A stretch of DNA of 64,000 nucleotides from NCBI GenBank assembly GCA_900143635.1, contig FREY01000001.1:93324-157323 (forward strand). Direction: 5' to 3'. The stretch comes from Rhodobacteraceae bacterium Alg231-04. Its GTDB lineage: Bacteria > Pseudomonadota > Alphaproteobacteria > Rhodobacterales > Rhodobacteraceae. The notes under the pieces were generated by a model. That model was not told where the DNA came from and did no database searches. It saw nothing but the letters and a program-made list of their open reading frames with translations. Numbering within the stretch: position 1 is the stretch's first letter; every line of letters starts with the position of its first letter. This document shows, in pieces, positions 5,995 through 59,397 of this stretch. Position numbers and translations under genes: made by a program.

Positions 5995-6017
5995 TTCTAC
6001 CTGCCAGACAGAAGTAC

Positions 6018-6046
6018 AAGGCCGCCCCTGATCCGGGCGGCCTTTT
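6018..6046 (+). terminator. rho-independent terminator after rhlE
   Basis: Ten-bp arms AAGGCCGCCC (6018-6027) and GGGCGGCCTT (6035-6044) with a 7-nt loop and a short T run. Confidence 0.85.
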
Positions 6047-6181
6047 GCATGAAAACGCATGGACCCCTGCGTTTTCTGCATAGCGGCATTTCGAGTTTGT
6101 CTGATTTCATTGGGATTTTATGAGCGTATACCGCCGTCAACGCCACTTGGCAGTCCTACTTTTCTGAACCGGAACACTCCA

Positions 6182-6361
6182 ATGACCAACGTCGACTTTC
6201 ATCCCCTGACCATGAGCGAGATCCGCGCCATCGAAAATGAAGCGCAGCGTCTGCGGGCTGCCGCCATGGCCAATGGCATCCGTGCCGCCTTTGCATGGCT
6301 TGTTGCCCTGCCGAAAAAGGCGACCAGCTGCCCGTCTTGCGCACGGCCGCTGCACCCCTGA
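6182..6361 (+). CDS. 59-aa small protein with a CPSC motif
   Basis: A short gene starting MTNVDFHPLTMSEIRAIENE and ending in SCPSCARPLHP. It has an acidic amphipathic N-terminal half, an Ala-rich helix (RAAAMANGIRAAFAWLVALP), and a C-terminal CxxC pair that could bind metal or be redox active. It lies alone between two strong terminators (6018-6046 and 6389-6425), which supports its being a separate transcription unit. It loosely resembles the short Rhodobacteraceae proteins grouped as 'RSP_7527 family', but I hold that lightly. Function unknown. Confidence 0.6.
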   Translation: MTNVDFHPLTMSEIRAIENEAQRLRAAAMANGIRAAFAWLVALPKKATSCPSCARPLHP

Positions 6362-6388
6362 TCCTGCATTCCAGCAGCAGCTGAAATG

Positions 6389-6425
6389 AAAAAGCGCCCG
6401 GCCTTTCGGCCCGGGCGCTTTTTCT
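6389..6425. terminator. bidirectional terminator between the small CPSC gene and rnj
   Basis: Long GC stem with arms AAAAGCGCCCGGCC and GGCCCGGGCGCTTTTT (one bulged base), loop TTTC, A run on one side and T run on the other, so it can serve both converging genes. Confidence 0.88.
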
Positions 6426-6464
6426 TTGTTTGCTTCCGATTGGGAATAACCCGGAGCGAGAGGG

Positions 6465-6489
6465 CGGGCAAAGCGTGACGCCTTGCCCG
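6465..6489. other. stem-loop just past the rnj stop codon
   Basis: Near-perfect 12-bp inverted repeat CGGGCAAAGCGT / ACGCCTTGCCCG (one mismatch, 1-nt centre), without a T run on either strand. It lies 8 bases beyond the rnj stop and probably protects or shapes the 3' end of that mRNA. Confidence 0.5.
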
Positions 6490-6496
6490 GCCAGTG

Positions 6497-8164
6497 TCAG
6501 CGCATGCGGCTGACGATCACCGTGATTTCCGGCTTACGGCCAATCTCGGAGAGGGCAGACTGGCGGCCAATGCGGCGCAGCGCTTCTTCCAGCTTATCAT
6601 CATCGCGCCGGGTCTTGGCGTCAGCACGCATCATAAACTGGTTCAGGTCTTCTTCCATGACCTCAACCAATGCGGCCTTGGAGGTGCCGGTTTCCGGCAG
6701 GCCCTTCAGATCGACCCAGGGCTCGCCCAGCGGCTCGTCTTCTTCGTCCATGATCACGCTGATCACTGCGTGGCCGTTCAGGGCCATGCGGATACGGTCG
6801 CGCACCACACCGTCCAGCGCGCCGATCTTGACGGAACCGTCCAGATAGGTACGGCCCGTCTCGACGTAATCGGCCACTTTCGGCGTTTCATCTGTCAGGT
6901 CCAGCATCGTGCCATTCACGGCCAGCGCGCTGGCAATGCCCTTGGCCTCACCCAGCTTGGCATGTTCGCGCAGGTGGCGGTGTTCGCCGTGCATCGGCAC
7001 CAGTATCTTGGGCTTGATCAGATCGTGGATCGCTTCCAGATCGGGGCGGTTGGCGTGGCCCGACACGTGATAGAGCCCAGAGCTGTCATCAACAACATCG
7101 ATGCCCTTTTGCGAGAACTGGTTGATGATGCCAATCACACCCTTCTCGTTGCCCGGAATGGTCTTGGAGGAGAACAGGAAGGTATCCCCCTTCTTCATCG
7201 TCAGACCACGGTATTTGCCACGGGCCAGCTGCGCGGTGGCTGCGCGGCGTTCGCCCTGACTGCCGGTGACGATCAGCATCAGGTTTTCACGCGGCAGGCT
7301 GGTGGCATCCTCGGGGCTGACGCAATTGGGGAAATCGGTCAGAACGCCGGTTTCCACCGCGGCATCCACCATGCGGCGCATGGCGCGACCCAAGAGAACA
7401 ACCGAGCGGCCTGCACGTTCGCCGGCCTCGGCTAGCGTTTTCACCCGCGCCACGTTGGAGGCAAAGGTGGTGGCCGCAACCATGCCCTTGGCTTCGCCGA
7501 TCAGGCGGGTGATTTCCGGGCCCAGCTCGCTTTCAGAGCGGCCGGGATGGCGCGAGAAGACGTTTGTGCTGTCACACATCAGCGCCTGCACACCGTCCTT
7601 AGCGATCTCTTCCCAGACCTTGGGATCAAAGCCTTCGCCGACGATCGGCGTGGGGTCCAGTTTGAAGTCACCGGTGTGCACGATACGGCCCGCCGGACTG
7701 TCGATCACCAGACCGCCGCTTTCGGGGATCGAGTGCGCCATCGGCACCACGCCAATGGTGAAGGGACCCATCTTCATCGTCTCCGGCCAGGGCTGCACGG
7801 TCTGCACGATCTTGGGATCGTGGCCGTGCTCTTCCATCTTGCGCCGGGCGATATTGGCGGTGAAGGTCCGGGCATAGACCGGCACGTTCAGCGAAGAATA
7901 CATATGCGCCACGCCACCGATGTGGTCTTCGTGGGCATGGGTGATGATGATGCCTTCGAGCTGGTCCTTGCGGTCTTGCAGCCATTTCATGTCCGGCATG
8001 ATCAGATCAACGCCAGGCGTCGTATCCATGTCGGGGAAGGCCACGCCCAGATCCACAAGGATCAGACGTTCTTTGCCGGGTTTGCCATAGCCATAAACAT
8101 AGGCGTTCATGCCAATTTCACCTGCCCCGCCGAGGGGAAGGTAGATCAATCGTTCACTGCTCAT
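6497..8164 (-). CDS. rnj: ribonuclease J
   Basis: A 555-aa metallo-beta-lactamase / beta-CASP nuclease with 5'-3' exo- and endonuclease activity on mRNA and rRNA; alphaproteobacteria use it together with RNase E. N-terminus LPLGGAGEIGMNAYVYG; zinc-binding HAHEDH at residues 76-81; beta-CASP portion including VLLGRAMRRMVDAA; then LVPMHGEHRHLREHAKL and a C-terminal dimerisation domain. The start at MSSERLIYLPLGG overlaps the coaX stop by 11 bases, so both are on one mRNA (birA-coaX-rnj). The gene ends 71 bases from a bidirectional terminator. Confidence 0.95.
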   Translation of the reverse strand: MSSERLIYLPLGGAGEIGMNAYVYGYGKPGKERLILVDLGVAFPDMDTTPGVDLIMPDMKWLQDRKDQLEGIIITHAHEDHIGGVAHMYSSLNVPVYARTFTANIARRKMEEHGHDPKIVQTVQPWPETMKMGPFTIGVVPMAHSIPESGGLVIDSPAGRIVHTGDFKLDPTPIVGEGFDPKVWEEIAKDGVQALMCDSTNVFSRHPGRSESELGPEITRLIGEAKGMVAATTFASNVARVKTLAEAGERAGRSVVLLGRAMRRMVDAAVETGVLTDFPNCVSPEDATSLPRENLMLIVTGSQGERRAATAQLARGKYRGLTMKKGDTFLFSSKTIPGNEKGVIGIINQFSQKGIDVVDDSSGLYHVSGHANRPDLEAIHDLIKPKILVPMHGEHRHLREHAKLGEAKGIASALAVNGTMLDLTDETPKVADYVETGRTYLDGSVKIGALDGVVRDRIRMALNGHAVISVIMDEEDEPLGEPWVDLKGLPETGTSKAALVEVMEEDLNQFMMRADAKTRRDDDKLEEALRRIGRQSALSEIGRKPEITVIVSRMR

Positions 8165-45232: not shown

Positions 45233-45463
45233 ATGAACGAACCCAAAGAATACATGACCGAACAGGTTCAAAACCCTGAGTTTCTGATCCAGTTCAGCCT
45301 GAATGCCATCCGCTCTGGCATGTCGCCGCAAAAGGTCGCCGAACTGGGCGATGAGATCATTGACCAGCTGTTTGATGAACGGCTGGCCAATGAGGTGGAG
45401 CTTGCCGATCAGGCGACCATGGGCGGGCACGACATCGCCGGTCCGTTCATTCCGAACGCCTAA
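45233..45463 (+). CDS. 76-aa protein of unknown function
   Basis: An acidic small protein starting MNEPKEYMTEQVQNPEFLIQ and ending HDIAGPFIPNA. The middle (SLNAIRSGMSPQKVAELGDE and IIDQLFDERLANEVELADQA) predicts two helices, perhaps a dimerising bundle. No signal, membrane or metal motif. It has a 163-base leader with its own structured ribosome-binding site and lies alone between the LPS gene and a convergent amidohydrolase. I do not recognise it. The start is fixed by GGAG eight bases upstream. Confidence 0.66.
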   Translation: MNEPKEYMTEQVQNPEFLIQFSLNAIRSGMSPQKVAELGDEIIDQLFDERLANEVELADQATMGGHDIAGPFIPNA

Positions 45464-45505: not shown

Positions 45506-46669
45506 TTATGCCGCAGGCATACGTTTTTCGACGATCTCAGCCCACCAGCTGCAACCGGCCGGGATTGCCTCGTCGTTGAAATTATATTCGGGGTGATGCA
45601 CGGCGGCGGTGTCGCCATTGCCAACCAGAATATAAGCGCCAGGGCGTTCTTCCAGCATAAAGGCGAAATCCTCGCCGCCCATCACCAGCGGTGCGTCACT
45701 GCAAGTGCCCGAGACCGAGGCCGCGACTTCGGCGGCAAATTCGGTCTGTTCTTCAGAGTTCACCATCACCGGATAACCACGCATGTAGTTGATCTCTGCG
45801 GTGCCGCCACTGGCCGTTGCGATGCCGGTGCCAACTTCCTTGAGCCGGGTTTCGGCAAGATCCCGCATTGCCGCACTCATCGTGCGCACGGTGCCTTTCA
45901 GGTGCACCTTCTGCGGGATGACGTTGAACGCATTGGACGAGGTTTCAAACGAGGTGACCGAGACCACCAGCTGGTCGACTGGATCAGCATTGCGGCTGGC
46001 AATGGTCTGCAGTCCCAGCACGATCTGGCTGGCCATCACGGTTGGATCCACGGTTTCATGCGGCTTGGCGGCGTGGCCACCGCGCCCCTCCAGCGTCATC
46101 TCGAACGTGTCGGTGGCGGCAAAGAAGCTACCGGGACGGATCGCAAAGGAGCCGACCGGCTGACCCGGCCAATTGTGCATGCCGTAGACTTCTTGGATGT
46201 TCCAGCGGTCCATCATGCCGTCGTCGCACATCTCCTTACCGCCGCCGCCGCCTTCTTCGGCGGGCTGGAAGATCACCACGACGGTGCCGTCGAAATTGCG
46301 GGTCTCGGACAGGTATTTCGCCGCGCCGAGCAGCATTGCGGTGTGGCCATCATGGCCGCAGGCGTGCATCGCGCCGGGGGTTTTGGAGGCGTAATCCAGA
46401 CCCGTCGCTTCCAGAATAGGCAGCGCGTCCATGTCGGCGCGCAACCCGATCACCTTGCCGGCCGTGTCGGTCTTGCCTTTGATGACACCAACCACGCCGG
46501 TGCGGCCGATGCCCGTCACCACTTCCTCGCAGCCGAAGTCCTTCAGTTTCTCTGCCACCAGCGCCGAGGTGCGGTGGGTGTCAAACAGGATCTCCGGGTT
46601 TTCGTGGATGTCACGCCGCCATGCGGTGATTTCATCCTGCAGTTCGGCAAAGCGGTTCTTAACGGGCAT
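45506..46669 (-). CDS. M20-family amidohydrolase, paralogue 1 of 4 (hippurate hydrolase type)
   Basis: A 387-aa metallopeptidase of the M20D group (aminoacylase, hippurate hydrolase, IAA-amino-acid hydrolase type), expected to remove the acyl group from N-acyl amino acids in the cytoplasm. Metal ligands are intact: MHACGHDGHTAMLLGAAKYL (Cys104, His106), QPAEEGGGGG (Glu pair 138-139), the His of VYGMHNWPG and the C-terminal VHHPEYNFNDEAIP. It starts MPVKNRFAELQDE like its sisters and ends KRMPAA. Last in the leftward unit, 20 bases after paralogue 2. It differs most in the substrate-pocket region (RPGSFFAATDTFEMTLEG), so it may prefer another acyl group. Confidence 0.88.
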   Translation of the reverse strand: MPVKNRFAELQDEITAWRRDIHENPEILFDTHRTSALVAEKLKDFGCEEVVTGIGRTGVVGVIKGKTDTAGKVIGLRADMDALPILEATGLDYASKTPGAMHACGHDGHTAMLLGAAKYLSETRNFDGTVVVIFQPAEEGGGGGKEMCDDGMMDRWNIQEVYGMHNWPGQPVGSFAIRPGSFFAATDTFEMTLEGRGGHAAKPHETVDPTVMASQIVLGLQTIASRNADPVDQLVVSVTSFETSSNAFNVIPQKVHLKGTVRTMSAAMRDLAETRLKEVGTGIATASGGTAEINYMRGYPVMVNSEEQTEFAAEVAASVSGTCSDAPLVMGGEDFAFMLEERPGAYILVGNGDTAAVHHPEYNFNDEAIPAGCSWWAEIVEKRMPAA

Positions 46670-46689
46670 TGGTCACTCCATACATTCTT

Positions 46690-47853
46690 TTATTGCGCCG
46701 GCATTCGGCGTTCGATCATTTCGGCAAACCAGCTGCAGCCCAGCGGGATTGCCTCGTCGTTGAAATCCATCTCAGGGTGGTGCAGCGGTGCCCCCTCTCC
46801 GGTGCCAAGGCTGATGAAGGCACCGGGGCGTTCGCGCAGCAGGTAGGAAAAGTCCTCTGCCCCCATAACCATAGGAGACTCAACGTAAGCACCGCTGACA
46901 CTCTGTGCAATGGCGGCGGCGTGGCCGACTTCCGTTTCGCTATTCACCAGCACCGGATAACCGTCGCGGTAGTCCACTTCGGCCGCGCCGCCGAACATCG
47001 CCGCGGTGCCTTCGCAGATCTCGAAGATGCGTTTTTTAGCATTGGCGCGCACCTCTTCCGACATGGTGCGCAGGGTGCCTTTGACGGTGATCCGCTGCGG
47101 GATCACATTGGTCGCCTTAGACGAGCTTTCAATCGAGGTCACCGAGACCACGATCTGTTCCACCGGATCAGTGTTGCGCGAAGAAATGGTCTGCAGGGCA
47201 ATCACCGCGTGGCAGGCGATCATCATCGTGTCCACCGTGGTGTGCGGCTTGGCAGCGTGGCCCCCTTTGCCTTCAAACTCGATGGTATATTCGTCAGCAG
47301 CTGCCAGCATCGCACCGGCACGCGAGGAAAATTCGCCAAAGGGGCGGCCGGGTCCATTGTGGATCGCATAGACCTCCTGGATACCCCAGCGGTCCATCAT
47401 CCCGTCCTGCACCATCTTCTCACCACCGCCACCGCCTTCTTCGGCGGGCTGGAAGATCATCACGGCGGTGCCGTCAAAATTGCGGGTCTCAGACAGGTAT
47501 TTCGCCGCGCCCAGCAGCATCGCGGTGTGGCCGTCATGGCCACAGGCATGCATTTTGCCAGCAATGGTTGAGGCATAGGGCTTGCCGGTTTCCTCGTGAA
47601 TAGGCAGCGCATCCATGTCAGCGCGCAGCCCCACGACCTTGCCTGATGTGCTGGCCTTGCCCTTGATAACCGCGACCACACCCGAGATGCCAATGCCTTC
47701 TACCACCTCATCACAGCCGAATTCGCGCAGCTTTTCGGCCACGATGCCAGCGGTGCGATGGACCTCGAAGCCCAGTTCAGGGTGCATATGGAAATCCTGC
47801 CGCCATGCGGCGATTTCATCGTGGAGTTCAGCAAAACGGTTCTTAACTGGCAT
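46690..47853 (-). CDS. M20-family amidohydrolase, paralogue 2 of 4
   Basis: A 387-aa sister of the gene above. All metal residues are present: MHACGHDGHTAMLLGAAKYL, QPAEEGGGGGE, VYAIHNGPG and LHHPEMDFNDEAIP (His358, His359). The dimerisation/catalytic loop is GGHAAKPH. By eye it is closest to paralogue 3, with long runs of near-identical DNA (for example around 47075-47160 against 48240-48320), which suggests their duplication is the most recent. Fifteen bases separate the two genes. Confidence 0.88.
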   Translation of the reverse strand: MPVKNRFAELHDEIAAWRQDFHMHPELGFEVHRTAGIVAEKLREFGCDEVVEGIGISGVVAVIKGKASTSGKVVGLRADMDALPIHEETGKPYASTIAGKMHACGHDGHTAMLLGAAKYLSETRNFDGTAVMIFQPAEEGGGGGEKMVQDGMMDRWGIQEVYAIHNGPGRPFGEFSSRAGAMLAAADEYTIEFEGKGGHAAKPHTTVDTMMIACHAVIALQTISSRNTDPVEQIVVSVTSIESSSKATNVIPQRITVKGTLRTMSEEVRANAKKRIFEICEGTAAMFGGAAEVDYRDGYPVLVNSETEVGHAAAIAQSVSGAYVESPMVMGAEDFSYLLRERPGAFISLGTGEGAPLHHPEMDFNDEAIPLGCSWFAEMIERRMPAQ

Positions 47854-47868
47854 TAGTCAAATCCTTCG

Positions 47869-49032
47869 TCAGGCGGCAGGCATGCGACGTTCAATCATTT
47901 CGGCAAACCAGGAACATCCGATAGGGATGGCCTCATCGTTGAAATTATACTCCGGGTGATGCAGGGCTGCGCCGTCACCGATGCCCATCATGATAAAGGC
48001 ACCGGGGCGCTGTTCCAGCATGTAAGAGAAATCCTCGCTTCCCATGACCAGCGGCAGTTCGGCGTATTTGCCGCTTACCACCTCAGCCATCTGGGCCGCG
48101 TAGCCGACCTCAGTTTCGGTATTGATCGAAGCAGGATAGCCCCAATCCATGTCCAAAGTCGCGGTGCCGCCAAACATGGCAGCCGTGCCTGTGGCCAGTT
48201 CCTCGATGCGTTGGCGGGCCATGGTGCGGGTCTCGCGGGACATGGTGCGCAGGGTGCCTTTGACGGTGATTTTCTGCGGGATCACATTGGTCGCCTTGGA
48301 CGAGCTTTCGATCGAGGTGATCGACAGCACGATCGGGTCCACCGGGTCGGTGTTGCGCGACGGGATCGTTTGCAGGGCCAGCACCATGTGGCAGGCGATC
48401 ATCATGGTATCGACGGATTTATGCGGCTGGGCTGCGTGACCGCCCTTGCCTTCGATCACGACCTCAAAGGAATCCCCTGCCGCCGTGATCGGCCCGGTGC
48501 GCGACCGGAATTCACCCAGCGGAAAGCCGGGCATATTATGGATGGCATAGACTTCCTGAACACCCCAGCGGTCCAACATGCCGTCCTGCACCATCTTCTC
48601 ACCACCGCCGCCGTCTTCTTCGGCCGGCTGGAAGATCAACACAGCCGTGCCGTCGAAATTGCGCGTCTCGGCCAGATATTTCGCCGCGCCCAGCAGCATC
48701 GCAGTGTGACCATCATGGCCACAGGCGTGCATTTTTCCTTCATTCACAGAGGCATAGTCTGCGCCGGTCTCCTCGGGGATCGGCAGCGCATCCATGTCGG
48801 CGCGCAAACCCACAACCCGGCCATTGCTGTTGGATTTCCCTTTGATCACCGCGACAACACCAGTGATGCCGATACCTTCCACCACTTCATCACAGCCAAA
48901 TTCACGTAGTTTGTCAGCAACGATGCCGGCCGTGCGGTGCACCTCAAAGCCCAGTTCGGGGTGCCTGTGGAAATCCTGTCGCCAGCCGGCGATTTCGTTA
49001 TGCAGCTCGGCAAAGCGGTTCTTGACCGGCAT
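47869..49032 (-). CDS. M20-family amidohydrolase, paralogue 3 of 4
   Basis: A 387-aa sister. Metal site MHACGHDGHTAMLLGAAKYL, QPAEEDGGGGE, VYAIHNMPG, LHHPEYNFNDEAIP, and GGHAAQPH. Compared with its neighbours the first Gly after the Glu pair is Asp (EED). Same start (MPVKNRFAELHNE) and end (RRMPAA) as paralogue 2. Expected role as for the others; the retained metal site argues that all four copies are active. Confidence 0.88.
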   Translation of the reverse strand: MPVKNRFAELHNEIAGWRQDFHRHPELGFEVHRTAGIVADKLREFGCDEVVEGIGITGVVAVIKGKSNSNGRVVGLRADMDALPIPEETGADYASVNEGKMHACGHDGHTAMLLGAAKYLAETRNFDGTAVLIFQPAEEDGGGGEKMVQDGMLDRWGVQEVYAIHNMPGFPLGEFRSRTGPITAAGDSFEVVIEGKGGHAAQPHKSVDTMMIACHMVLALQTIPSRNTDPVDPIVLSITSIESSSKATNVIPQKITVKGTLRTMSRETRTMARQRIEELATGTAAMFGGTATLDMDWGYPASINTETEVGYAAQMAEVVSGKYAELPLVMGSEDFSYMLEQRPGAFIMMGIGDGAALHHPEYNFNDEAIPIGCSWFAEMIERRMPAA

Positions 49033-49055
49033 TGATTATCTCCTTCGGGAATATC

Positions 49056-50222
49056 TTACTCCGCGGGCATGCGCCTCTCGGTGATTTCAGCAAACCAGCT
49101 GACACCGGCGGGAATGGTTTCGTCATCAAAATTATACTGCGGGTGATGGCACATGGCCGTGTCCCCATTACCCAGAAACATATAGGCGCCCGGACGTTCT
49201 TCGAGCATGTAGGCAAAATCTTCGGACGGCATGATCGGGTCGACGTCACCGATCACCTTATCCGTCACCGCCTTGGCCGCCTCGACCGCATAGGCGGCCT
49301 CGTCGGGTGTATTCACTGTAACCGGATAACCCGGTGTCCAGATCACTTCCGCCGATGCCCCCATGGCGGAAGCTGTGTCTTCGGCAATGCGGAAGACGCG
49401 CTCTTTGGCGTAACCACGCATCTCTCCGTCCAGGGTGCGCACGGTGCCTTCCATGCGTGCGGTATGGGCGATTACGTTTGACGCTGTGCTGTCTGTGTTG
49501 AAGGTGCCGACAGTCAGAACCACATTCTTCAGCGGGTCGATATTACGCGACACAATCGTTTGCAGGGTGATCAGGATCTGGGCGGCCACCAACGTGCTGT
49601 CCACTGCCCGGTGCGGTTCGGCGGCGTGGCCACCAATGCCGGTCACCACAATTTCGAACTCATCAGAGGAGGCCATCAGCCCGCCGGGCCGAGTGGCAAA
49701 TTCACCGACCGGCATGCCCGGCGCGTTGTGCATGCCGTAAACCTCCTGAATGCCCCAGCGGTCCATCATTCCGTCGTCGCACATCGCCTTTCCGCCGGCG
49801 CCGCCTTCTTCGGCGGGCTGGAAAATCAACACCACAGAGCCGTCGAAATTGCGCGTCTCGGCCAGATATTTCGCCGCGCCCAGCAACATGGCGGTATGCC
49901 CGTCGTGGCCACAAGCGTGCATCTTGCCCGGTACGTTCGAGGCATAATCCAGCCCGGTATCTTCTTCGATTGGCAGCGCGTCCATGTCGGCACGCAGGCC
50001 GATCACCCGGCCTTTGGTATCAGATTTCCCTTTGATCACAGCCACAACACCGGTCTTGCCGATGCCCGGTGTGATCTCATCAACACCGAATTCTTTCAGC
50101 CGCGCCTCAACAAAGGCGGCCGTTTCATGCACGTCATACATCAGTTCCGGATTGGCGTGCAGGTGGCGACGCCAGCCGGTGATCTCGGTGTGAAGTTCGG
50201 CAATACGATTACGGACGGGCAT
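49056..50222 (-). CDS. M20-family amidohydrolase, paralogue 4 of 4
   Basis: A 388-aa sister, first of the four to be transcribed. Metal site MHACGHDGHTAMLLGAAKYL, QPAEEGGAGGK, VYGMHNAPG, CHHPQYNFDDETIP; loop GGHAAEPH. It begins MPVRNRIAELHTE and ends RRMPAE. It is the most divergent of the four in the C-terminal lid (VIWTPGYPVTVNTPDE) and may define the ancestral member. It lies 75 bases after the ArgE-like gene; that gap shows no terminator. Confidence 0.88.
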   Translation of the reverse strand: MPVRNRIAELHTEITGWRRHLHANPELMYDVHETAAFVEARLKEFGVDEITPGIGKTGVVAVIKGKSDTKGRVIGLRADMDALPIEEDTGLDYASNVPGKMHACGHDGHTAMLLGAAKYLAETRNFDGSVVLIFQPAEEGGAGGKAMCDDGMMDRWGIQEVYGMHNAPGMPVGEFATRPGGLMASSDEFEIVVTGIGGHAAEPHRAVDSTLVAAQILITLQTIVSRNIDPLKNVVLTVGTFNTDSTASNVIAHTARMEGTVRTLDGEMRGYAKERVFRIAEDTASAMGASAEVIWTPGYPVTVNTPDEAAYAVEAAKAVTDKVIGDVDPIMPSEDFAYMLEERPGAYMFLGNGDTAMCHHPQYNFDDETIPAGVSWFAEITERRMPAE

Positions 50223-50297: not shown

Positions 50298-51461
50298 TCA
50301 GCCGCCGAGACGATCCAGCAGACCCAGCATAAACCCATGGCCTGCCTTGAACTGCGCCACGGTGATGAATTCGTCCGGCTGGTGTGCCTGCGCAATGTCA
50401 CCCGGACCGCAGACCACGGCGGAATAGCCCGCGTTCTGGAACTGGCCGGCCTCGGTCGCATAGCTGACCACATGGATGCCGTTGTCGCCGGTGATGGCGC
50501 GCACTTCGGCCTCGGCCTCGCCGTCTGCCTCGGGGGTCAGACCGGGCACCGCGAATTTGCTGTCGAGAATGATTTTCGCATCCGGCTGAACCGCCTGCAT
50601 CTCGGCCTCGATCCGGCGCACTTCGGCGAAATAGGCGTCGCGCCAATCTTCGGCGGAATCACTGGGCACAAAGCGGAAATCCATTGAAAAATGACAGTCC
50701 AGCGCGGTGATATTATGCGCTGTACCCCCCTGAACCGTGCCCACATGGCAGGTGGTATAGGGCGGATCAAACATCGCAGCGATCTCACTCGGCTCGGCGG
50801 CCATGCTTTCGGCGTTGCGCTGGTTGGCCCAGTCGATCAGGCGCGCCCCCTGCATCACTGCACTGACCCCGGTGTGCATGATCGAGGAGTGCACCTCGAA
50901 CCCCTGCACATGGGTTTTATAGCCCTGCCCGCCCTTGTGGCCGGTCACCGCCTTCATCATCGACGGCTCACCCACGATGACGGCAGATCCCTTGGGCAGG
51001 ACAGCCTGCATCGCTTCGATCATCGGCGGCGCACCGGTGCAGCCGACCTCTTCGTCATAAGACAGCGCCAGTTGCAGCGGGCGTTTCACACCACGGGACT
51101 GCGCCTCGACCAGAGTCCAGATCGCCAGCGCGTCAAAGCCTTTCATGTCGCAGGTGCCACGGCCAAAATACTTGCCGTCGCGCTCAACCACAGTGAAAGG
51201 ATCCGAGGTCCAGGGCTGGCCATCGACCGGCACCACATCCGTGTGGCCGGACAGGACAATCGCCCCTTCGACCATGGGGCCAACATGGGCGAAAATCGCC
51301 TCTTTCGGCTGCTCGGGATCGCGGTAGCGATGGCTTTCTACCCCATGTTCGCCAAGGTAATCCGCGACCCAGTCCACCAGCGGAATATTGGTATCACGAC
51401 TCACCGTTGGAAAGGAGATCAGCGTCTGCATGATCTCCAGCGGTGTCAGCCTTTGTGCCAT
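50298..51461 (-). CDS. argE: acetylornithine deacetylase (ArgE, M20 family)
   Basis: A 387-aa M20A metallo-deacylase. Motifs: LSGHTDVVPVDGQPW (metal His/Asp), RGTCDMKGFDALAIW, LSYDEEVGCTGAPPMIEAM (catalytic Glu-Glu), and VCGPGDIAQAHQPDEFITVA. It fits ArgE of alphaproteobacteria, which cuts N2-acetylornithine to ornithine. Here it is placed between an oligopeptide-type ABC ATPase (3-base gap) and the four M20D genes, so it may also serve the catabolism of imported acyl amino acids rather than arginine synthesis. Confidence 0.86.
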   Translation of the reverse strand: MAQRLTPLEIMQTLISFPTVSRDTNIPLVDWVADYLGEHGVESHRYRDPEQPKEAIFAHVGPMVEGAIVLSGHTDVVPVDGQPWTSDPFTVVERDGKYFGRGTCDMKGFDALAIWTLVEAQSRGVKRPLQLALSYDEEVGCTGAPPMIEAMQAVLPKGSAVIVGEPSMMKAVTGHKGGQGYKTHVQGFEVHSSIMHTGVSAVMQGARLIDWANQRNAESMAAEPSEIAAMFDPPYTTCHVGTVQGGTAHNITALDCHFSMDFRFVPSDSAEDWRDAYFAEVRRIEAEMQAVQPDAKIILDSKFAVPGLTPEADGEAEAEVRAITGDNGIHVVSYATEAGQFQNAGYSAVVCGPGDIAQAHQPDEFITVAQFKAGHGFMLGLLDRLGG

Positions 51462-51464
51462 GGT

Positions 51465-53291
51465 TCAGTACCCGCTGTCGGTGAGCAGCACGAAATGGCC
51501 CGGCTCAATTTCAATATAATCCGACGGTTCCGGTTCGTAGTTCAGATCATGGATTGGTGAGGGGATCGGTTTGAAGTTCAGATCCCGTTCGTCCTTGCGC
51601 TGGCGCGGATCGGCAATCGGCACCGCCTTCATCAGCGCCTGTGTATAGGCGTGCTGCGGGTTCTCGAAGACCCGAGCACGCGGGCCTATCTCGACCAGAC
51701 GGCCCAGATACATCACCCCGACCTGATGGCTGACCCGTTCAACCACTGCCATATCATGACTGATGAACAGGAAGGACAGATCCAGTTCGGCCTGCAGCTC
51801 CATCATCAGGTTCAACACCTGCGCCTGCACAGACACATCCAGCGCCGACACGGCCTCATCCGCCAGAATCAGCTTGGGGTTCAAGGCCAGCGCACGGGCA
51901 ATGGCGATCCGCTGTCGCTGCCCACCGGACATCTCGTGCGGGAAGCGCCGCATGAAACTGCGCGGCAACTGTACCCGGTCAAACAGATGCGCGACACGGT
52001 CATCCAGCTCGGACCCCGAAGCCGTGCCGTAGTTGCGCATGGGTTCAGCAACCTGATCGGCCAACATCATCTGCGGATTGAGCGATGCAAAGGGATCCTG
52101 AAAGATCATCTGCATGTTCTGGCGCATCTTGTGCATGTCGCCTTGATTGAGCCCCAGAACATCGGTGCCCTCAAAGTGTACCGAGCCGGAAGCCGGTTCA
52201 ACCAGTCGCAGAATCGAGCGGCCGGCGGTGGATTTTCCGCAACCGGATTCACCGACCAGCGACAGGGTCTGCCCCTTGTTCACCTTGAACGAGATATCCT
52301 CGACCGCATGGACCTGCGCCACGGTGCGCCGCATGAAACCGCCCTTCACCGCGAAGCGGGTGGTGAGGTTCTTTACCTCCAGCAGCACCTCGTCCGAACC
52401 CTTGATCGGCGCGATTTCCTTCTGGTCCACGCCCATCAGCTTCATCGGCTCTGGGTAGGCCTTGCCGGTCATCTCACCCAGTTTGGGAACCGCTGCCAGC
52501 AGTGCCTTGGTGTAATCGTGCTGCGGATCCTCAAAAATCTGTTCGACCGGACCTTCTTCGACCTTGTTGCCGCGGTACATTACAACCACGCGGTCAGCCA
52601 TCTGCGCCACGACCGCCATGTCATGGGTGATGAACATTACCGCAGTGCCGGTCTCGCGTTTCAGCCGGTCCATCAGGGCGAGGATTTCAGCCTGAATGGT
52701 CACATCCAATGCGGTTGTTGGCTCATCCGCGATCAGCAGGCGCGGCTCGCAGGCGAGCGCCATGGCGATCACCACACGCTGGCGCATACCGCCCGACAGC
52801 TCGTGCGGGTATTGCTTCAGACGGCGGTCCGGCTCCGGGATGCGCACCTGATGCAGCAGCTCCAGCGCGCGGGCCTCGGCCTCTTTCTTGGTCATGCCCT
52901 TGTGGACGCGCAGGCCTTCGGTCAGCTGGCGGCCAACCGTGAACACCGGGTTCAGCGCCGTCATCGGCTCCTGAAAGATCATGCCGATCTGATTGCCGCG
53001 GATCTGCTTCATCAGACCCTGCTCGGCCTTGGCCAGATCGACCTCGGTACCGTCGCGCTGATTGAACATCAATTCGCCACCTGCGATCTCGCCGCCGCCG
53101 AATTCCACCAGCCGCATCAGCGACAAGGAGGAGACCGATTTGCCCGATCCCGATTCGCCCACGATGCACAGAGTTTCACCGGGGCTGATGTCAAACGAGA
53201 CGTCCTCAACCCCGACCACAGGCCCGTCTTTTGTTTGAAATTCAACGCGCAATCCGTTGATCCGGGCAATCGGCTGATCCAGCACTTGCAT
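51465..53291 (-). CDS. fused double ATP-binding protein of a peptide-type ABC transporter
   Basis: A 608-aa protein with two complete ABC domains, matching DppD and DppF joined together. First domain: Walker [15 protein letters not shown], signature [15 protein letters not shown], Walker [15 protein letters not shown]. Second: [15 protein letters not shown], signature [15 protein letters not shown], Walker [15 protein letters not shown]. Each domain ends with the family-typical C-terminal extension ([15 protein letters not shown] and [15 protein letters not shown]). The start is ATG 53291 after AGGGGAG. It powers the permeases encoded divergently at 57450-59397. Confidence 0.92.
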
Positions 53292-53596
53292 CTCCCCTGC
53301 CCACCTTTTGGTGGTGCATTTTTGTTTATTTTTGCTTCTGGGGTGAACGCTAACGGCGCTCAGCGAGAAGGTCAAACCCGCGCCTGAAACTTCCGCTACG
53401 TCACAAGGGGCCAGGACAAGGGTGCGACCGAGCGCTCCAAAAAGTTGAACGGCGCTTGACTGAATCATCTAAATGAGAATTCATATTCATGTGAGTTTTT
53501 GGTTTTTCGACATGTGACCCACCCCATTTTCCGACCTCAGGCGGCAAGGCTGCCGGTCCATCAAAACAATAAAACGACGACAAGGAGACGTTCTTC
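53292..53596. other. divergent intergenic region between the ATPase and binding-protein units
   Basis: A 305-base spacer with the start signals of both directions. The minus-strand gene has AGGGGAG ahead of it and the plus-strand gene AAGGAG (9 bases before ATG). It holds the plus-strand promoter candidate listed separately, an AT-rich stretch (53460-53510) and no recognisable operator or gene. Confidence 0.5.
53445..53473 (+). promoter_or_regulatory. candidate promoter for the first binding-protein gene
   Basis: TTGAAC (53445-53450), 17-base spacer, TCTAAA (53468-53473); four of six consensus bases in each box. The leader would be about 117 bases. Confidence 0.35.
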
Positions 53597-55297
53597 ATGA
53601 CACCCAAGGCAATCCTATTAGGGTCATTGGCCGCCGCGGCCCTCGCGGGCCCTGCCAGCGCCGAACGTGGCGCAGATGGCCATTTGAACATGATCTACTG
53701 GCAGGCGCCTTCGACGCTGAACCCGTACCTGAGCGGTGGCACAAAGGAACAGGAAGCGGCCTCTCTGGTGCTTGAATCACTGGCCCGTTATGACCAGACC
53801 GGTACACTTGTTGCCTTCCTGTCCGACGGCATTCCCACGGTGGAAAACGGCGGCGTCTCGGCCGATCTGACGTCGATCACCTGGAAATTGAAAGACGGGC
53901 TGAAGTGGTCTGACGGAACGCCGGTGACCTCGGCAGATGTGAAGTTCACCGCCGATTACTGCATGGACCCGGCCGGTGGTTGCGCGTCTCTGCAGCGGTT
54001 TGAAAACATCGCAAGCATCGAAACCCCGGATGCACTGACCGTGGTCGTCAATTACGATTCCCCCAAGCCAAACCCCTATGGTCCCTTTGTTGGCTCCGAA
54101 GCGCCCATCATCCAGATGGCACAGTTCAAGGAGTGCCTCGGCGCCGCCGCCCCTTCCTGCACCGATGCCAACTTTGCCCCCATCGGCACCGGCCCCTTCA
54201 AAGTGGACGAGTTCCGCCCGAACGACGTGATTTCCTTTTCTGCCAACGGCGAATACCGCGATCCGGCCAAACCCGCCTTTGCCACAGTGACCTTCAAGGG
54301 TGGCGGTGATGCGCAGTCTGCCGCCCGCGCCGTTCTGGAAACCGGAGACTTCGATTACGCCTGGAACCTGCAGCTGGCACCTGACGTGTTGGAAGCGATG
54401 AAAGGCAAAGGCAACGGCCAGATCGTTGCGGCCTTCTCCAACTCGGTCGAGCGGTTGGAGCTGAACATGACCAACCCTTCGCATGATCTGGCCGAGGGCG
54501 AACGCTCCACCGCGAAACACGCCCACCCTGCGTTCAGTGACATGGCCGTGCGTCAGGCCCTCTCGATTTCCATCGACCGGGCGCTGCTGGCCGAAATCGG
54601 CTACGGCCCTGCCGGACGCGCGACCTGTAATATCGTCCCAGCCCCGGCCCTGTTTGCCTCGGACAACACGGCCTGCATGACGCAGGATATCGCTGGCGCC
54701 AATAAGCTGCTGGACGATGCTGGCTGGGCAAAAGGGTCTGACGGGGTGCGCGAAAAAGACGGGGTGCGCCTGTCTCTGCTGTTCGCCACATCCACCAATG
54801 CCGTGCGTCAGGATTATCAGGCGCTGATCAAATCCTGGTGGCAGGAAATCGGCGTAGAAACCGAACTGCGCAATGTCGCCGGTTCGGTCTTCTTTGGTGG
54901 GGATCCCGGATCGCCCGACACCATCCAGAAATTCTATGCCGATGTGACCATGTACACCAACAGCTTCCCCGGCACCGACCCGGAAGCCTATTTGGCTCAG
55001 CGTCTGTGCGGGCGTGAGCCGAAACCGGAATCGCAGTGGCTGGGATCCAACATCAACCGTTTCTGCGACGCGGAGTATGACGCATTGGTCGCCGAGCTGG
55101 CCAAGACCGGCGAGATGTCCAAGCGTGGCGAAATCGGCCGCAAGCTGAACGACATGCTGACCAAGGACAGCCTCGCGCTGATGCCGCTGGTGGATCGTGG
55201 TTTTGTGTCTGCCCACGCCAATTCGCTGGGTGGTGTGGTTCTCAACCCCTGGGACACCGAGATCTGGAATATCGCCGATTGGCACCGCATCAAGTAA
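53597..55297 (+). CDS. ABC transporter solute-binding protein, family 5, paralogue A
   Basis: A 566-aa periplasmic protein. Signal peptide MTPKAILLGSLAAAALAGPA ends ASA; the mature form begins ERGADGHLNMIYWQAPSTLN, the SBP_bac_5 (dipeptide/oligopeptide) fold start. Also LKDGLKWSDGTPVTSADVKF and LSISIDRALLAEIGYG. Four or more cysteines are conserved with paralogue B (for example CMDPAGGCASLQ and CGREPKPESQW). Ligand unknown; peptides or acyl amino acids are the natural guess from the M20 genes. Confidence 0.9.
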   Translation: MTPKAILLGSLAAAALAGPASAERGADGHLNMIYWQAPSTLNPYLSGGTKEQEAASLVLESLARYDQTGTLVAFLSDGIPTVENGGVSADLTSITWKLKDGLKWSDGTPVTSADVKFTADYCMDPAGGCASLQRFENIASIETPDALTVVVNYDSPKPNPYGPFVGSEAPIIQMAQFKECLGAAAPSCTDANFAPIGTGPFKVDEFRPNDVISFSANGEYRDPAKPAFATVTFKGGGDAQSAARAVLETGDFDYAWNLQLAPDVLEAMKGKGNGQIVAAFSNSVERLELNMTNPSHDLAEGERSTAKHAHPAFSDMAVRQALSISIDRALLAEIGYGPAGRATCNIVPAPALFASDNTACMTQDIAGANKLLDDAGWAKGSDGVREKDGVRLSLLFATSTNAVRQDYQALIKSWWQEIGVETELRNVAGSVFFGGDPGSPDTIQKFYADVTMYTNSFPGTDPEAYLAQRLCGREPKPESQWLGSNINRFCDAEYDALVAELAKTGEMSKRGEIGRKLNDMLTKDSLALMPLVDRGFVSAHANSLGGVVLNPWDTEIWNIADWHRIK

Positions 55298-55632: not shown

Positions 55633-57333
55633 ATGAAATTGAAGTCCATCCTGATGGGCGCAGTGGCAGCAACTGCCTTTGCCCCTGCAGCCTTTGCTGA
55701 GCGTGGCGCTGACGGCCATGTCAATATTATCTATTGGCAGGCCCCGTCGATCCTGAACCCCTATCTGTCCTCGGGCACCAAAGACATCGAGAGCGCCTCG
55801 CTGGTGATCGAACCGCTTGGCCGCTACGACCAGGACGGCGCGCTGGTCGCTTATCTGGCGGAAGAGATTCCCACCGTTGAAAATGGTGGCGTTTCGGCCG
55901 ATCTGAAGTCGATCACCTGGAAATTGAAGTCTGGCCTCAAGTGGTCCGACGGAAGTGACGTGACGTCACAGGACGTCAAGTTCACCGCCGATTACTGCAT
56001 GGATCCGGAAGGCGGCTGCGCGCAGCTGGCCAAGTTCGAAGGCGTTTCCTCGGTTGAGATTGTCGACGACCTGACCGTTGTTGTGAACTTCAGCGAGCCC
56101 AAGCCGAACCCCTATGGTCCCTTCATGGGCGGCCAGTCGCCGATCATTCAGGCAGCTCAGTTTGCCGATTGTACCGGTGCCAAGGCGCCGGAATGCACCG
56201 ACGCCAACTTTGGCCCGATCGGCACCGGCCCCTTCGTGGTTGATGAGTTCAAGCCAAACGACGTGATCTCCATGTCGGCGAACACCAACTACCGTGATGC
56301 AGCCAAACCGGCATTTGCCACCCTGACCTTCAAAGGCGGCGGCGATGCAACGGCCTCGGGTCGTGCGGTTCTGGAAACAGGCGAATTTGACTACGCCTGG
56401 AACCTGCAGCTGGCACCCGACGTTCTGGCCAAAATGGCCGAAGGCGGCAAAGGCACCCCGATCGCAGCATTCGGCACCCTGGTCGAGCGGATCGAGATGA
56501 ACATGACCGACCCGTCGCCCAGCCTCGAGGAAGGCGTGCGTTCGACCGCAGCAGCCCCCCACCCGGCCCTGTCCGACATCAACGTCCGCAAGGCCCTGTC
56601 GATGGCTATCGACCGCGACCTGCTGGTTGAAATCGGTTATGGTCAGGCTGGTCGTCCCACCTGTAACCTTGTGCCCGCACCGCTGGCTTACGCCTCGGAC
56701 AACACCGACTGCCTGGTTCAGGACATTGCTGGCGCCAACGCGCTGCTGGACGAAGCTGGCTGGGCCAAAGGCTCTGACGGCGTTCGTGAAAAAGACGGCG
56801 TTCGCCTGTCGCTGCTGTACCAAACCTCGACCAACGCCGTGCGTCAGGATTTCCAGGCTCTGATCAAACAGTGGTGGGACGAGATCGGTGTTGAAACCGA
56901 ACTGCGTAACATCAACGCCTCGGTCTTCTTTGGTGGTGACCCCGGTTCGCCCGATACCTTCCAGCGTTTCTATGCAGACGTTGAAATGTACGCCAACAAC
57001 TTCGATGGCACCGATCCGGAAAGCTATCTGGCGCAGCACACCTGCGACAAGGCGCCCAAGCCGGAAAGCCAGTGGCAGGGTGAAAACATCAACCGTTTCT
57101 GTGACCCGGCCTATGACGAGCTGGTTGCTGAACTGGGCCGCACTGGTGAGCTGTCCAAGCGCGGTGAGATCGCCAAGAAGCTGAACGACATGCTGACAAA
57201 AGACAGCTACGTGGTTGTGCCGCTGGTTGACCGTGGTCGTGTATCGGCCCACGCCAACAGCCTTGGTGGTGTTGTTCTGAACACCTGGGACAGCGAGCTG
57301 TGGAACGCAGCTGACTGGTACCGCATCAAGTAA
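55633..57333 (+). CDS. ABC transporter solute-binding protein, family 5, paralogue B
   Basis: A 566-aa sister of paralogue A, the same length with almost the same layout: signal MKLKSILMGAVAATAFAPAA ending AFA, mature start ERGADGHVNIIYWQAPSILN, LKSGLKWSDGSDVTSQDVKF, LSMAIDRDLLVEIGYGQAGR. Cysteines match paralogue A. Codon use here is more strongly biased to preferred codons than in A by eye, as expected for a very abundant binding protein. It is followed by two hairpins before the permease genes. Confidence 0.9.
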   Translation: MKLKSILMGAVAATAFAPAAFAERGADGHVNIIYWQAPSILNPYLSSGTKDIESASLVIEPLGRYDQDGALVAYLAEEIPTVENGGVSADLKSITWKLKSGLKWSDGSDVTSQDVKFTADYCMDPEGGCAQLAKFEGVSSVEIVDDLTVVVNFSEPKPNPYGPFMGGQSPIIQAAQFADCTGAKAPECTDANFGPIGTGPFVVDEFKPNDVISMSANTNYRDAAKPAFATLTFKGGGDATASGRAVLETGEFDYAWNLQLAPDVLAKMAEGGKGTPIAAFGTLVERIEMNMTDPSPSLEEGVRSTAAAPHPALSDINVRKALSMAIDRDLLVEIGYGQAGRPTCNLVPAPLAYASDNTDCLVQDIAGANALLDEAGWAKGSDGVREKDGVRLSLLYQTSTNAVRQDFQALIKQWWDEIGVETELRNINASVFFGGDPGSPDTFQRFYADVEMYANNFDGTDPESYLAQHTCDKAPKPESQWQGENINRFCDPAYDELVAELGRTGELSKRGEIAKKLNDMLTKDSYVVVPLVDRGRVSAHANSLGGVVLNTWDSELWNAADWYRIK

Positions 57334-57449: not shown

Positions 57450-58457
57450 ATGCTCACCTTCACCATCCGGCGATTGGTTCTATCCGTTCCAACGCTGCTA
57501 TTTATCTCCCTCATAATCTTCCTGCTGCTTGAGCTCGCCCCCGGCGATCCGATGGCGCAGGTGCCGCTGACCGTTCCCCCGGAAGTCAAAGAAAAGATGC
57601 GCGAGGCGCTGGGTCTCGGCCAGCCGACGCATGTCCGCTTCTGGAAATGGCTGGTACAGTTCTTCTGGATCGAACCGCAGGTCATGATCGACCACTATTT
57701 CGGCACCACCTACGCCGAAGGCGATCTCCGCGTGATCTCCTGGCAGACCCGTTCGCCGGTCATGGACATCGTTGTTCAGCGCATCCCGCAAACACTCTGG
57801 GTGGTTGGCACCGCCTATATCGTTGGCATCCTGATCGCCCTGCCGATCGGCATCTATTCCGCCTATCGCCAGTATTCGGTCTTTGACCAATGCGGTACCT
57901 TTGTGACCATGGTCGGCTTCTCGATCCCGCCCTTCTTCACCGGGCCCTTGCTGATCGTCGTCTTCTCGGTGCAGCTGGGCTGGTTCCCCTTCATCTATGA
58001 CACCACCCACAAGGTGACCGATTGGGACAGTTTCGTGTACCAATTCCGTCAGATGATCCTGCCGGTGATGGTGCTGGCGTTGCAAACAACAGCCCAGATC
58101 AGCCGCTTCATGCGCGCCTCGATGCTGGACAACCTCAATCAGGACTATGTGCGCACCGCCCGCGCCAAGGGCCTGTCCGAGGCGGTGGTTGTCACCGTGC
58201 ATGTGCTGCGCAACTCAATGATCCCTGTTGTGACGGTGATTGCACTGGGCATGCCGGCCATCTTTGGCGGCGCCATCATCACCGAGCAGGTCTTCTCAGT
58301 GAACGGGATCGGTTCCTTGCTGATTGGTGCATTGTTCGCCAATGACCTGCCAATGGTACAGACACTGACGTTCATCTTCGCGATCCTCATCGTGTTCTTC
58401 AACCTGATCGCCGATATCCTCTACGGCATTCTTGATCCGAGGATCCGCTATGACTGA
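57450..58457 (+). CDS. peptide-type ABC transporter permease (DppB-like)
   Basis: A 335-aa inner-membrane permease with about six helices (N-terminal LTFTIRRLVLSVPTLLFISL), a periplasmic segment after the first helix and the EAA loop YVRTARAKGLSEAVVVTVHV. Pairs with the next gene. Partner of the double ATPase encoded at 51465-53291; the locus has no other ATPase. Confidence 0.92.
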   Translation: MLTFTIRRLVLSVPTLLFISLIIFLLLELAPGDPMAQVPLTVPPEVKEKMREALGLGQPTHVRFWKWLVQFFWIEPQVMIDHYFGTTYAEGDLRVISWQTRSPVMDIVVQRIPQTLWVVGTAYIVGILIALPIGIYSAYRQYSVFDQCGTFVTMVGFSIPPFFTGPLLIVVFSVQLGWFPFIYDTTHKVTDWDSFVYQFRQMILPVMVLALQTTAQISRFMRASMLDNLNQDYVRTARAKGLSEAVVVTVHVLRNSMIPVVTVIALGMPAIFGGAIITEQVFSVNGIGSLLIGALFANDLPMVQTLTFIFAILIVFFNLIADILYGILDPRIRYD

Positions 58458-59397
58458 TCTTTCAAACCCCGTTCCGCTTACCAAACCACGTAGCCAGTGG
58501 CTGAGTGTCTGGGACCAGTTCAAGCAGCACAAGGGCGCGCTGATGGGCGGCGGATTCCTCGCCTTCATCACCCTCGCTGTGCTGATCGGCCCCTATATCT
58601 GGACACTGGATCCGCAAAAGCTGGATATCCGCAACAAGGATCTGCGGCCGATCTTCAATGCAATCTGGGACAGCGACGCAAAGGTGTCCTGGGCGCATCC
58701 CTTCGGCACCGACAACCTTGGCCGTGACGGGCTGTCAAACCTGCTGGCTGGTGGGCGCACCTCGATGGCGGTGGGCTGGGCGGCGATGCTGCTGACGCTG
58801 GGCATCGGCACATCGGTTGGGGTGATCGCCGGTTTTTTCAAGAAACTGGACGGCCCGCTGATGCGGCTGACCGATCTGTTCCTGTCGCTGCCGATCCTGC
58901 CGCTGCTGCTGGTCGCTGTGACGCTGTTCAGACAGCCGCTGCGCGCCAACTTTGGTCCTGAGGGTGGCATGTTCATCCTGATCGTGGCGATCATCGGCAT
59001 CACCAGCTGGATGCCCACCGCGCGGATCGTGCGCGGTGATATTCTGGCGCTGAAGGAACGCGAGTTCGTACTGGCCGCGCGCTCCATCGGCACACGGCCC
59101 GGTGCGATCATCCGGCGCCATTTGCTGCCCAATGTGATCTCGCCGATCATGGTCTCGGCCACGCTGGGTCTGGCGGCGGCGATCATCACCGAAAGCGCGT
59201 TGTCCTTCCTTGGTGTTGGCTTCCCCTCCGACTTCCCCACTTGGGGAAAGATGCTGGCAGACGCCGTGCAGCGGATGGAGGAATTCCCCGAGCGCGTTAT
59301 GCTGCCGGGGATTGCGATCTCGCTGACCGTGCTGAGTGTGAACTATCTGGGTGACGGGTTGCGCGACGCGCTGGATCCGCGCATTCGCGGCCGCTAA
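58450..59397 (+). CDS. peptide-type ABC transporter permease (DppC-like)
   Basis: A 315-aa permease. N-terminal cytoplasmic segment SQWLSVWDQFKQHKGALMGG, then the OppC-type helix; EAA loop FVLAARSIGTRPGAIIRRHL; C-terminal GDGLRDALDPRIRGR, usual for DppC. The start ATG 58450 overlaps the end of the previous gene by 8 bases; an in-frame ATG six codons earlier is less likely. A terminator follows. Confidence 0.92.
   Translation: MTDLSNPVPLTKPRSQWLSVWDQFKQHKGALMGGGFLAFITLAVLIGPYIWTLDPQKLDIRNKDLRPIFNAIWDSDAKVSWAHPFGTDNLGRDGLSNLLAGGRTSMAVGWAAMLLTLGIGTSVGVIAGFFKKLDGPLMRLTDLFLSLPILPLLLVAVTLFRQPLRANFGPEGGMFILIVAIIGITSWMPTARIVRGDILALKEREFVLAARSIGTRPGAIIRRHLLPNVISPIMVSATLGLAAAIITESALSFLGVGFPSDFPTWGKMLADAVQRMEEFPERVMLPGIAISLTVLSVNYLGDGLRDALDPRIRGR

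Follow-up and report, generated by a model that had tools for sequence, protein, structure and literature searches.

The M20D amidohydrolases with solved structures include YxeP (1ysj), ILL2 (1xmb), an S. aureus protein (4ewt) and CsAga (6slf). The available portion of PMC11511702 describes a Cys bridge in the metal site of CsAga and hydrolysis of N-acyl-glutamines by this enzyme, gives M20D enzymes in a table as dimers or tetramers, and cites a study (Jamdar et al. 2015) whose title reports three bacterial M20D enzymes to be carboxydipeptidases for Met-X. Here we analyse four tandem M20D genes in a 64,000-nucleotide stretch (the window, whose positions serve as coordinates throughout) of contig FREY01000001.1 from Rhodobacteraceae bacterium Alg231-04. 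Judged from gene order and trees, the array reflects the enlargement, specific to this lineage, of a putative scavenging operon that is widespread among roseobacters; in the array, copies 1 and 4 represent old lineages that are common to several genera and kept by relatives in the same gene order, and copies 2 and 3 appear to be the later split of a middle copy.

The operon around the array can be compared with one in Ruegeria pomeroyi. In the available parts of the papers concerned, SPO2814 is a binding protein and SPO2815 and SPO2816 are permeases (PMC8319176; the SPO2816 permease annotation is also in PMC4334477), and SPO2819 and SPO2820 are pntB and pntA (PMC10041152). SPO2814-2816 count among the 37 groups that all nine producers of sulfur aminolipids have and two non-producers lack (PMC8319176 Table 2), and the accompanying section does not take them up again. 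SPO2815 and SPO2816 mutants have fitness values of -0.12 and -0.14 log2 in Rp+V, the cells for the other two treatments being empty (PMC10041152 Table 1), and the accessible part of PMC9870897 does not mention SPO2814-2816. A literature search gave no paper that we recognised, partly from the search listings, as describing tandem M20D arrays in Rhodobacteraceae, and the short accessible text of PMC2447312 contained none of the terms sought. The gene order in the window is a binding protein (SBP2), two permeases (PermB and PermC), a DUF3422 gene, an FMN-reductase-like gene, pntB and then the end of a gene that we take to be pntA; this is the same gene count and order as SPO2814-SPO2820 (binding protein, two permeases, two further genes, pntB, pntA), in a comparison of gene order rather than sequence that used the published R. 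pomeroyi tags. The window differs in having two substrate-binding proteins (SBPs); it also has a split middle hydrolase.

Four intact M20D genes

The array consists of copy 1 (45506-46669, 387 aa), copy 2 (46690-47853, 387 aa), copy 3 (47869-49032, 387 aa) and copy 4 (49056-50222, 388 aa), all on the minus strand and read head to tail from copy 4, which adjoins an ArgE-like gene, to copy 1, the last gene of the cluster. The intergenic gaps are 20, 15 and 23 bp, and purine-rich, Shine-Dalgarno-like stretches can be seen by eye ahead of the genes. The four proteins share the N-terminus MPV[KR]NR, the internal sequence HACGHDGHTAMLLGAAKYL and the C-terminus RMPA followed by one residue. An earlier sequence-only reading of this DNA had described four head-to-tail genes of these lengths with common termini and intact metal sites, and the open reading frames (ORFs) and residues bear it out on both counts: thirteen positions (C104, H106, E138, E139, H165, H199, H204, N249, R262, E333, D334, H358 and H359), to which we assign probable metal, catalytic or lid roles, are invariant across the copies, and the conserved Cys/His/Glu/Glu/His metal and catalytic set of the M20D family is present in each. 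The full ORFs and intact residues rule out pseudogenisation.

All four copies belong to the M20D-type amidohydrolase family TIGR01891, with scores of 347.4, 341.5, 345.8 and 344.4 bits for copies 1 to 4 against a curated cut-off of 153.75. Apart from this general model, the best-scoring named enzymes are the CpsA carboxypeptidase (NF040868; 339-360 bits against a cut-off of 500) and the DoeB2 deacetylase (NF038260; 309-333 bits against 550), and all four copies lie below both cut-offs and so are members of neither. An AlphaFold2 model was made of copy 3 (mean pLDDT 94.9); it has the two-domain M20 fold, and its best solved match is 4ewt (Z 49.5, root-mean-square deviation 1.4 over 379 residues), with Z values of 44-50 over nearly the full length for 4ewt, 1xmb, 1ysj and 6slf. 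The window proteins share with these solved members the family score, the fold (as modelled for copy 3) and the Cys-containing metal motif, and differ from them in sequence (31-37% identity in the structural alignments of copy 3), in standing four in tandem and in being tied to an importer.

A further M20D paralogue, 51% identical to copy 3, lies elsewhere in the source genome (contig C23, positions 5364-6531 of locus L079). Its frame shifts near the 3' end, where the last His-containing stretch is in another frame (a frameshift or a sequencing error), and it adjoins two ORFs that by eye resemble agmatinase-family ureohydrolases.

Old lineages, a later split and purifying selection

Three lineages, A (copy 1), B (the middle copies) and C (copy 4), can be followed through the relatives. 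In a careful tree of 47 rows, the bootstrap of which is not fully settled, lineage C has support of 100/100 and lineage A of 100/99 (15 rows: 13 pre-labelled A and two unlabelled), copy 2 is the sister of copy 3 (100/100), this pair joins the middle copies of genome G028 and Aestuariivita (99/94), and the remaining middle copies form a second group. Lineage B is split in this tree and is one clade in the FastTree and quick trees (support 98 and 96); the large tree left out two short copies (L039_3876m and L066_2p), the distant paralogues of L079 and L080, and L102 and L135, which repeat L057 and L042. The order A-B-B-C was found in one of 123 loci, the window itself, and 28 loci have C-B-A or its reverse. 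The second genome of the genus, G001 (75% complete, 690 contigs), contains copy 1 and, at a contig edge, the last part of a middle copy. Because this fragment is placed with copy 2 rather than copy 3 (SH-aLRT 96, over 137 residues only), copies 2 and 3 probably separated before the two species of the genus did.

Between copies 2 and 3, identity is 75.0% in DNA and 77% in protein and dS is about 1.02, and their longest identical run is 32 nt (mean maximum in codon shuffles 23.4, p 0.064), so they are not near-identical; the long near-identical DNA runs that had been described for this pair are not there, and a recent duplication is ruled out. For all pairs in the window dS is 1.0-1.9, near saturation, and pairwise dN/dS is 0.17-0.29; in the pairs whose proteins were compared, these differ by 23-42%. 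The differences had also been said to cluster at residues 165-190 and near the lid. The lid (191-296) does have the highest variable fraction (0.66, against 0.59 for 297-387 and 0.52 overall; the metal block, 101-164, has the lowest at 0.23), but 165-190 (0.58) ranks only 79th of 362 windows of 26 residues, the densest of which lie at about 301-333.

Every lineage is under purifying selection. The average omega, measured by codon model, is 0.056, 0.104 and 0.101 for A, B and C (11, 13 and 12 rows) under the MG model and 0.047, 0.071 and 0.082 under the GY model, which gives 0.105 for the four window genes. The sequence-only reading of repeated duplication rather than decay therefore stands as regards the old A and C lineages, the sister copies and these low omega values, and fails as regards recent, near-identical duplicates. 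Residues fixed within lineages were counted over 56 A, 35 B and 38 C rows, with the window excluded and rows at least 97% alike thinned beforehand: 52 positions are fixedly different between lineages, against 199 other variable positions, and 21 of the 52 are in the lid. Position 357, beside H358 and H359, is the sole three-way marker (V in A, L in B and C in C, each at a frequency of 1.00). The sister copies depart from the family at two positions: in place of N351, which otherwise has a frequency of 1.00, copy 2 has T and copy 3 has I, and copy 2 has M in place of Y362.

Matches to M20D at E <= 1e-60 were found in 58 of 81 genomes, the source genome included. Among 40 loci of relatives, 12 have at least two adjacent copies and one (L057) has four. 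A second set of 80 named loci, which are the best 80 matches and hence biased, and some of which are cut by contig ends, has one, two, three and four copies in 25, 24, 27 and 4 cases, that is, at least two in 55; in L142 the second copy is about 5 kb off, and the Ruegeria sp. PrR005 record is counted in both sets. The organisms named include Leisingera, Ruegeria, Phaeobacter, Shimia and Sulfitobacter, together with some metagenome-assembled genomes named only Alphaproteobacteria or Rhodobacteraceae. Arrays of four had been called unusual; this is true of four copies as such, whereas arrays of two or more are common. The other four-copy arrays, those of Ruegeria sp. PrR005 (L102), Ruegeria sp. 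XHP0148 (L108), R. marina (L111) and Aestuariivita boseongensis (L152), resemble the window in having four adjacent M20D genes in the same operon, and differ in their composition, since they have one middle copy plus a copy x outside A, B and C, where the window has a split middle copy. This fourth copy from another lineage was seen inside the arrays of L057, L108, L111 and L152 (three Ruegeria and one Aestuariivita), and x is a distant lineage in the careful tree, in which PrR005, R. marina and Aestuariivita were included.

The importer cluster and its second binding protein

The array occupies the 3' end of a gene cluster in which the ABC ATPase, ArgE-like and M20D genes are read one way and the binding proteins and two permeases the other. 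On the minus strand, the ArgE-like gene (50298-51461) encodes an M20A deacetylase of the acetylornithine deacetylase family, above the cut-offs of both NF005710 (478.6 bits against 412) and TIGR01892 (363.9 against 297.7), and lies 3 bp from a gene for a fused two-domain Opp/Dpp ABC ATPase (51465-53468 as the ORF is listed) that has two ABC_tran stretches and scores 544.5 bits with NF008453 (cut-off 408). The top model for this ATPase is that of GsiA (NF007613), and its 763.2 bits are below the cut-off of 1077, which places it outside the glutathione importer family. The listed ORF is probably too long at its 5' end: because the family match starts at residue 67 and the matches in relatives are of about 610 codons, translation probably begins at an in-frame ATG at 53291, which GGGGAG closely precedes. 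On the plus strand follow the family 5 periplasmic binding proteins SBP1, the extra copy (53597-55297; PF00496, 212 bits), and SBP2 (55633-57333; PF00496, 229 bits), and the Opp/Dpp permeases B (57450-58457; PF00528, 133.9 bits) and C (58432-59397, with its start within the ORF unsettled; PF00528, 105.4 bits, and PF12911). A scan of the region for sigma-70-type promoters gave 3 sites against a shuffle mean of 4.1, no excess over shuffles, so the operon boundaries given here are drawn from gene spacing. In most relatives' loci, though not in all, the M20D genes occur together with the transporter and the ArgE-like gene. The sequence-only reading had mentioned neither the transporter operon nor the second binding protein, nor that the cluster recurs in relatives. 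A small ORF (45233-45463) between a glycosyltransferase gene and the array is conserved in the same-genus genome (72%, L039).

SBP1 and SBP2 are 73% identical. SBP1 has an orthologue in the same-genus genome (87%), and SBP2, the best match to the single SBP of relatives, is up to 87% identical to one of these. Two SBPs were found in 2 of 86 loci with an SBP match, the window and L166 of G001 (in which the second SBP is an edge fragment), and so in this genus only; the count included matches of fewer than 450 aligned residues, which the SBP tree excluded. In that tree SBP2 is the copy nearest to the relatives, and SBP1 and its G001 orthologue are on a deep, weakly placed branch (support 64), which may reflect an old duplication, an import or fast change.

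A putative scavenging module and its rivals

What might four such enzymes do beside one importer? We favour, at a probability of roughly 0.6, a scavenging module for small amide-linked compounds, likeliest short peptides and/or N-acyl amino acids, that has been enlarged in this lineage; the substrate class is that suggested by the gene families. In favour of this interpretation we count the TIGR01891 scores and the structural matches of copy 3, the adjoining importer and ArgE-like gene that most relatives keep with the M20D genes, the well-supported A and C lineages, the low omega values, the lineage-fixed positions, the departures of copies 2 and 3 at N351, the second SBP of this genus, and the gene order in common with R. 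pomeroyi, whose SPO2815 and SPO2816 mutants lose fitness in Rp+V. The two periplasmic binding proteins would capture substrates, and the one Opp/Dpp-type permease pair with its fused ATPase would import them. The ArgE-like M20A deacetylase and the four Cys-bridged two-metal M20D amidohydrolases would then cut the amide bond in the cytoplasm and free amino acids; a cytoplasmic site is proposed because no signal peptide is visible in the M20D proteins, while the N-termini of the binding proteins resemble Sec signal peptides (both read by eye rather than with a predictor). Each paralogue would take a different subset of substrates, and the enlarged set probably serves a wider range of small peptides or acylated amino acids. 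It may even be, though we think it rather doubtful, that in this genus the module was widened at both ends, with a second SBP and a second middle hydrolase on a shared permease, such that new receptor-hydrolase pairs opened new substrates with no need for another transporter; the coincidence of the SBP duplication and the split of copies 2 and 3 rests on one event each.

Several points weigh against this interpretation. The substrate of each cluster gene is predicted from sequence only. Any old paralogues acquire lineage-fixed residues, and the fixed positions are weakly enriched close to catalytic residues (p 0.11, 0.12, 0.05 and 0.03 within 2, 3, 4 and 5 residues, as sequence distance). A single origin of lineage B occurs in 4% of bootstrap trees, with a p-AU of 0.417, so that the approximately unbiased (AU) test does not reject it. 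The effect in SPO2815 and SPO2816 mutants is small, is significant in one of three treatments, and comes from another species linked to the window by gene order only. The diversified specificity of the sequence-only reading is plausible only: the group-fixed residues, position 357 among them, speak for it and the weak enrichment against it.

One alternative is dosage alone. If all copies catalysed the same reaction and served only to raise the amount of enzyme, identical active-site residues and purifying selection throughout would be expected, and both are seen; but dosage would favour recent identical copies or strong homogenisation, neither of which is seen, and the extent of protein difference, the separation of the lineages across genera and the fixed residue differences all make specialised paralogues the likelier case and dosage alone unlikely. 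Local gene conversion could instead homogenise the active-site block and leave the remainder to drift, in which case new specificity would not be under selection. There are suggestive signs of conversion in that block: the longest identical run of any pair, 47 nt between copies 3 and 4, exceeds 500 of 500 codon shuffles, synonymous identity is raised in codons 110-165 among most window pairs, and the synonymous excess at codons 111-150 (0.204) is the top of 33 loci (the window and 32 others; the next is 0.182). With orthologue loci of similar GC3 as controls, however, the joint scan of the four copies is not significant (p 0.08, peak at codons 231-270), nor are those of copies 1, 2 and 4 (p 0.23) and copies 1, 3 and 4 (p 0.21); by pair, copies 2 and 3 alone reach p 0.017, at codons 231-270 and before correction for six pairs. 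Thus, of the dN/dS and conversion tests that had been proposed for these genes, the former found purifying selection and the latter gave nothing significant against controls, and we regard conversion as an improbable explanation.

That the paralogues are subunits of one mixed oligomer is the least credible proposal. M20D enzymes are given as dimers or tetramers in the table mentioned above (PMC11511702) and the genes are tightly spaced, but 25 of the 80 named loci have one M20D copy in the same operon context, so one kind of M20D protein suffices there. Much closer to our own interpretation, and in fact a narrower form of it, is the view that the four enzymes are not acylases of N-acyl amino acids but carboxy-dipeptidases, among which the breakdown of peptides is shared out according to the class of side chain. 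The adjoining importer is of the Opp/Dpp type and the Met-X carboxydipeptidases of the Jamdar et al. title are precedents, while the activity of CsAga on N-acyl-glutamines points the other way; sequence alone cannot choose, and we hold this version to be a serious contender at somewhat less than even odds.

Roseobacters feed on phytoplankton exudates, and to our knowledge the organic nitrogen compounds that they take up are largely unassigned. The scavenging module proposed here would help to assign substrates to the SPO2814-2816-type transporter, for which the available part of PMC10041152 Table 1 gives a competition phenotype and names no substrate. Because A, B and C copies share an operon in many genera, in numbers from one to four, the operon series would provide a natural test of enzyme copy number and receptor duplication against substrate range.

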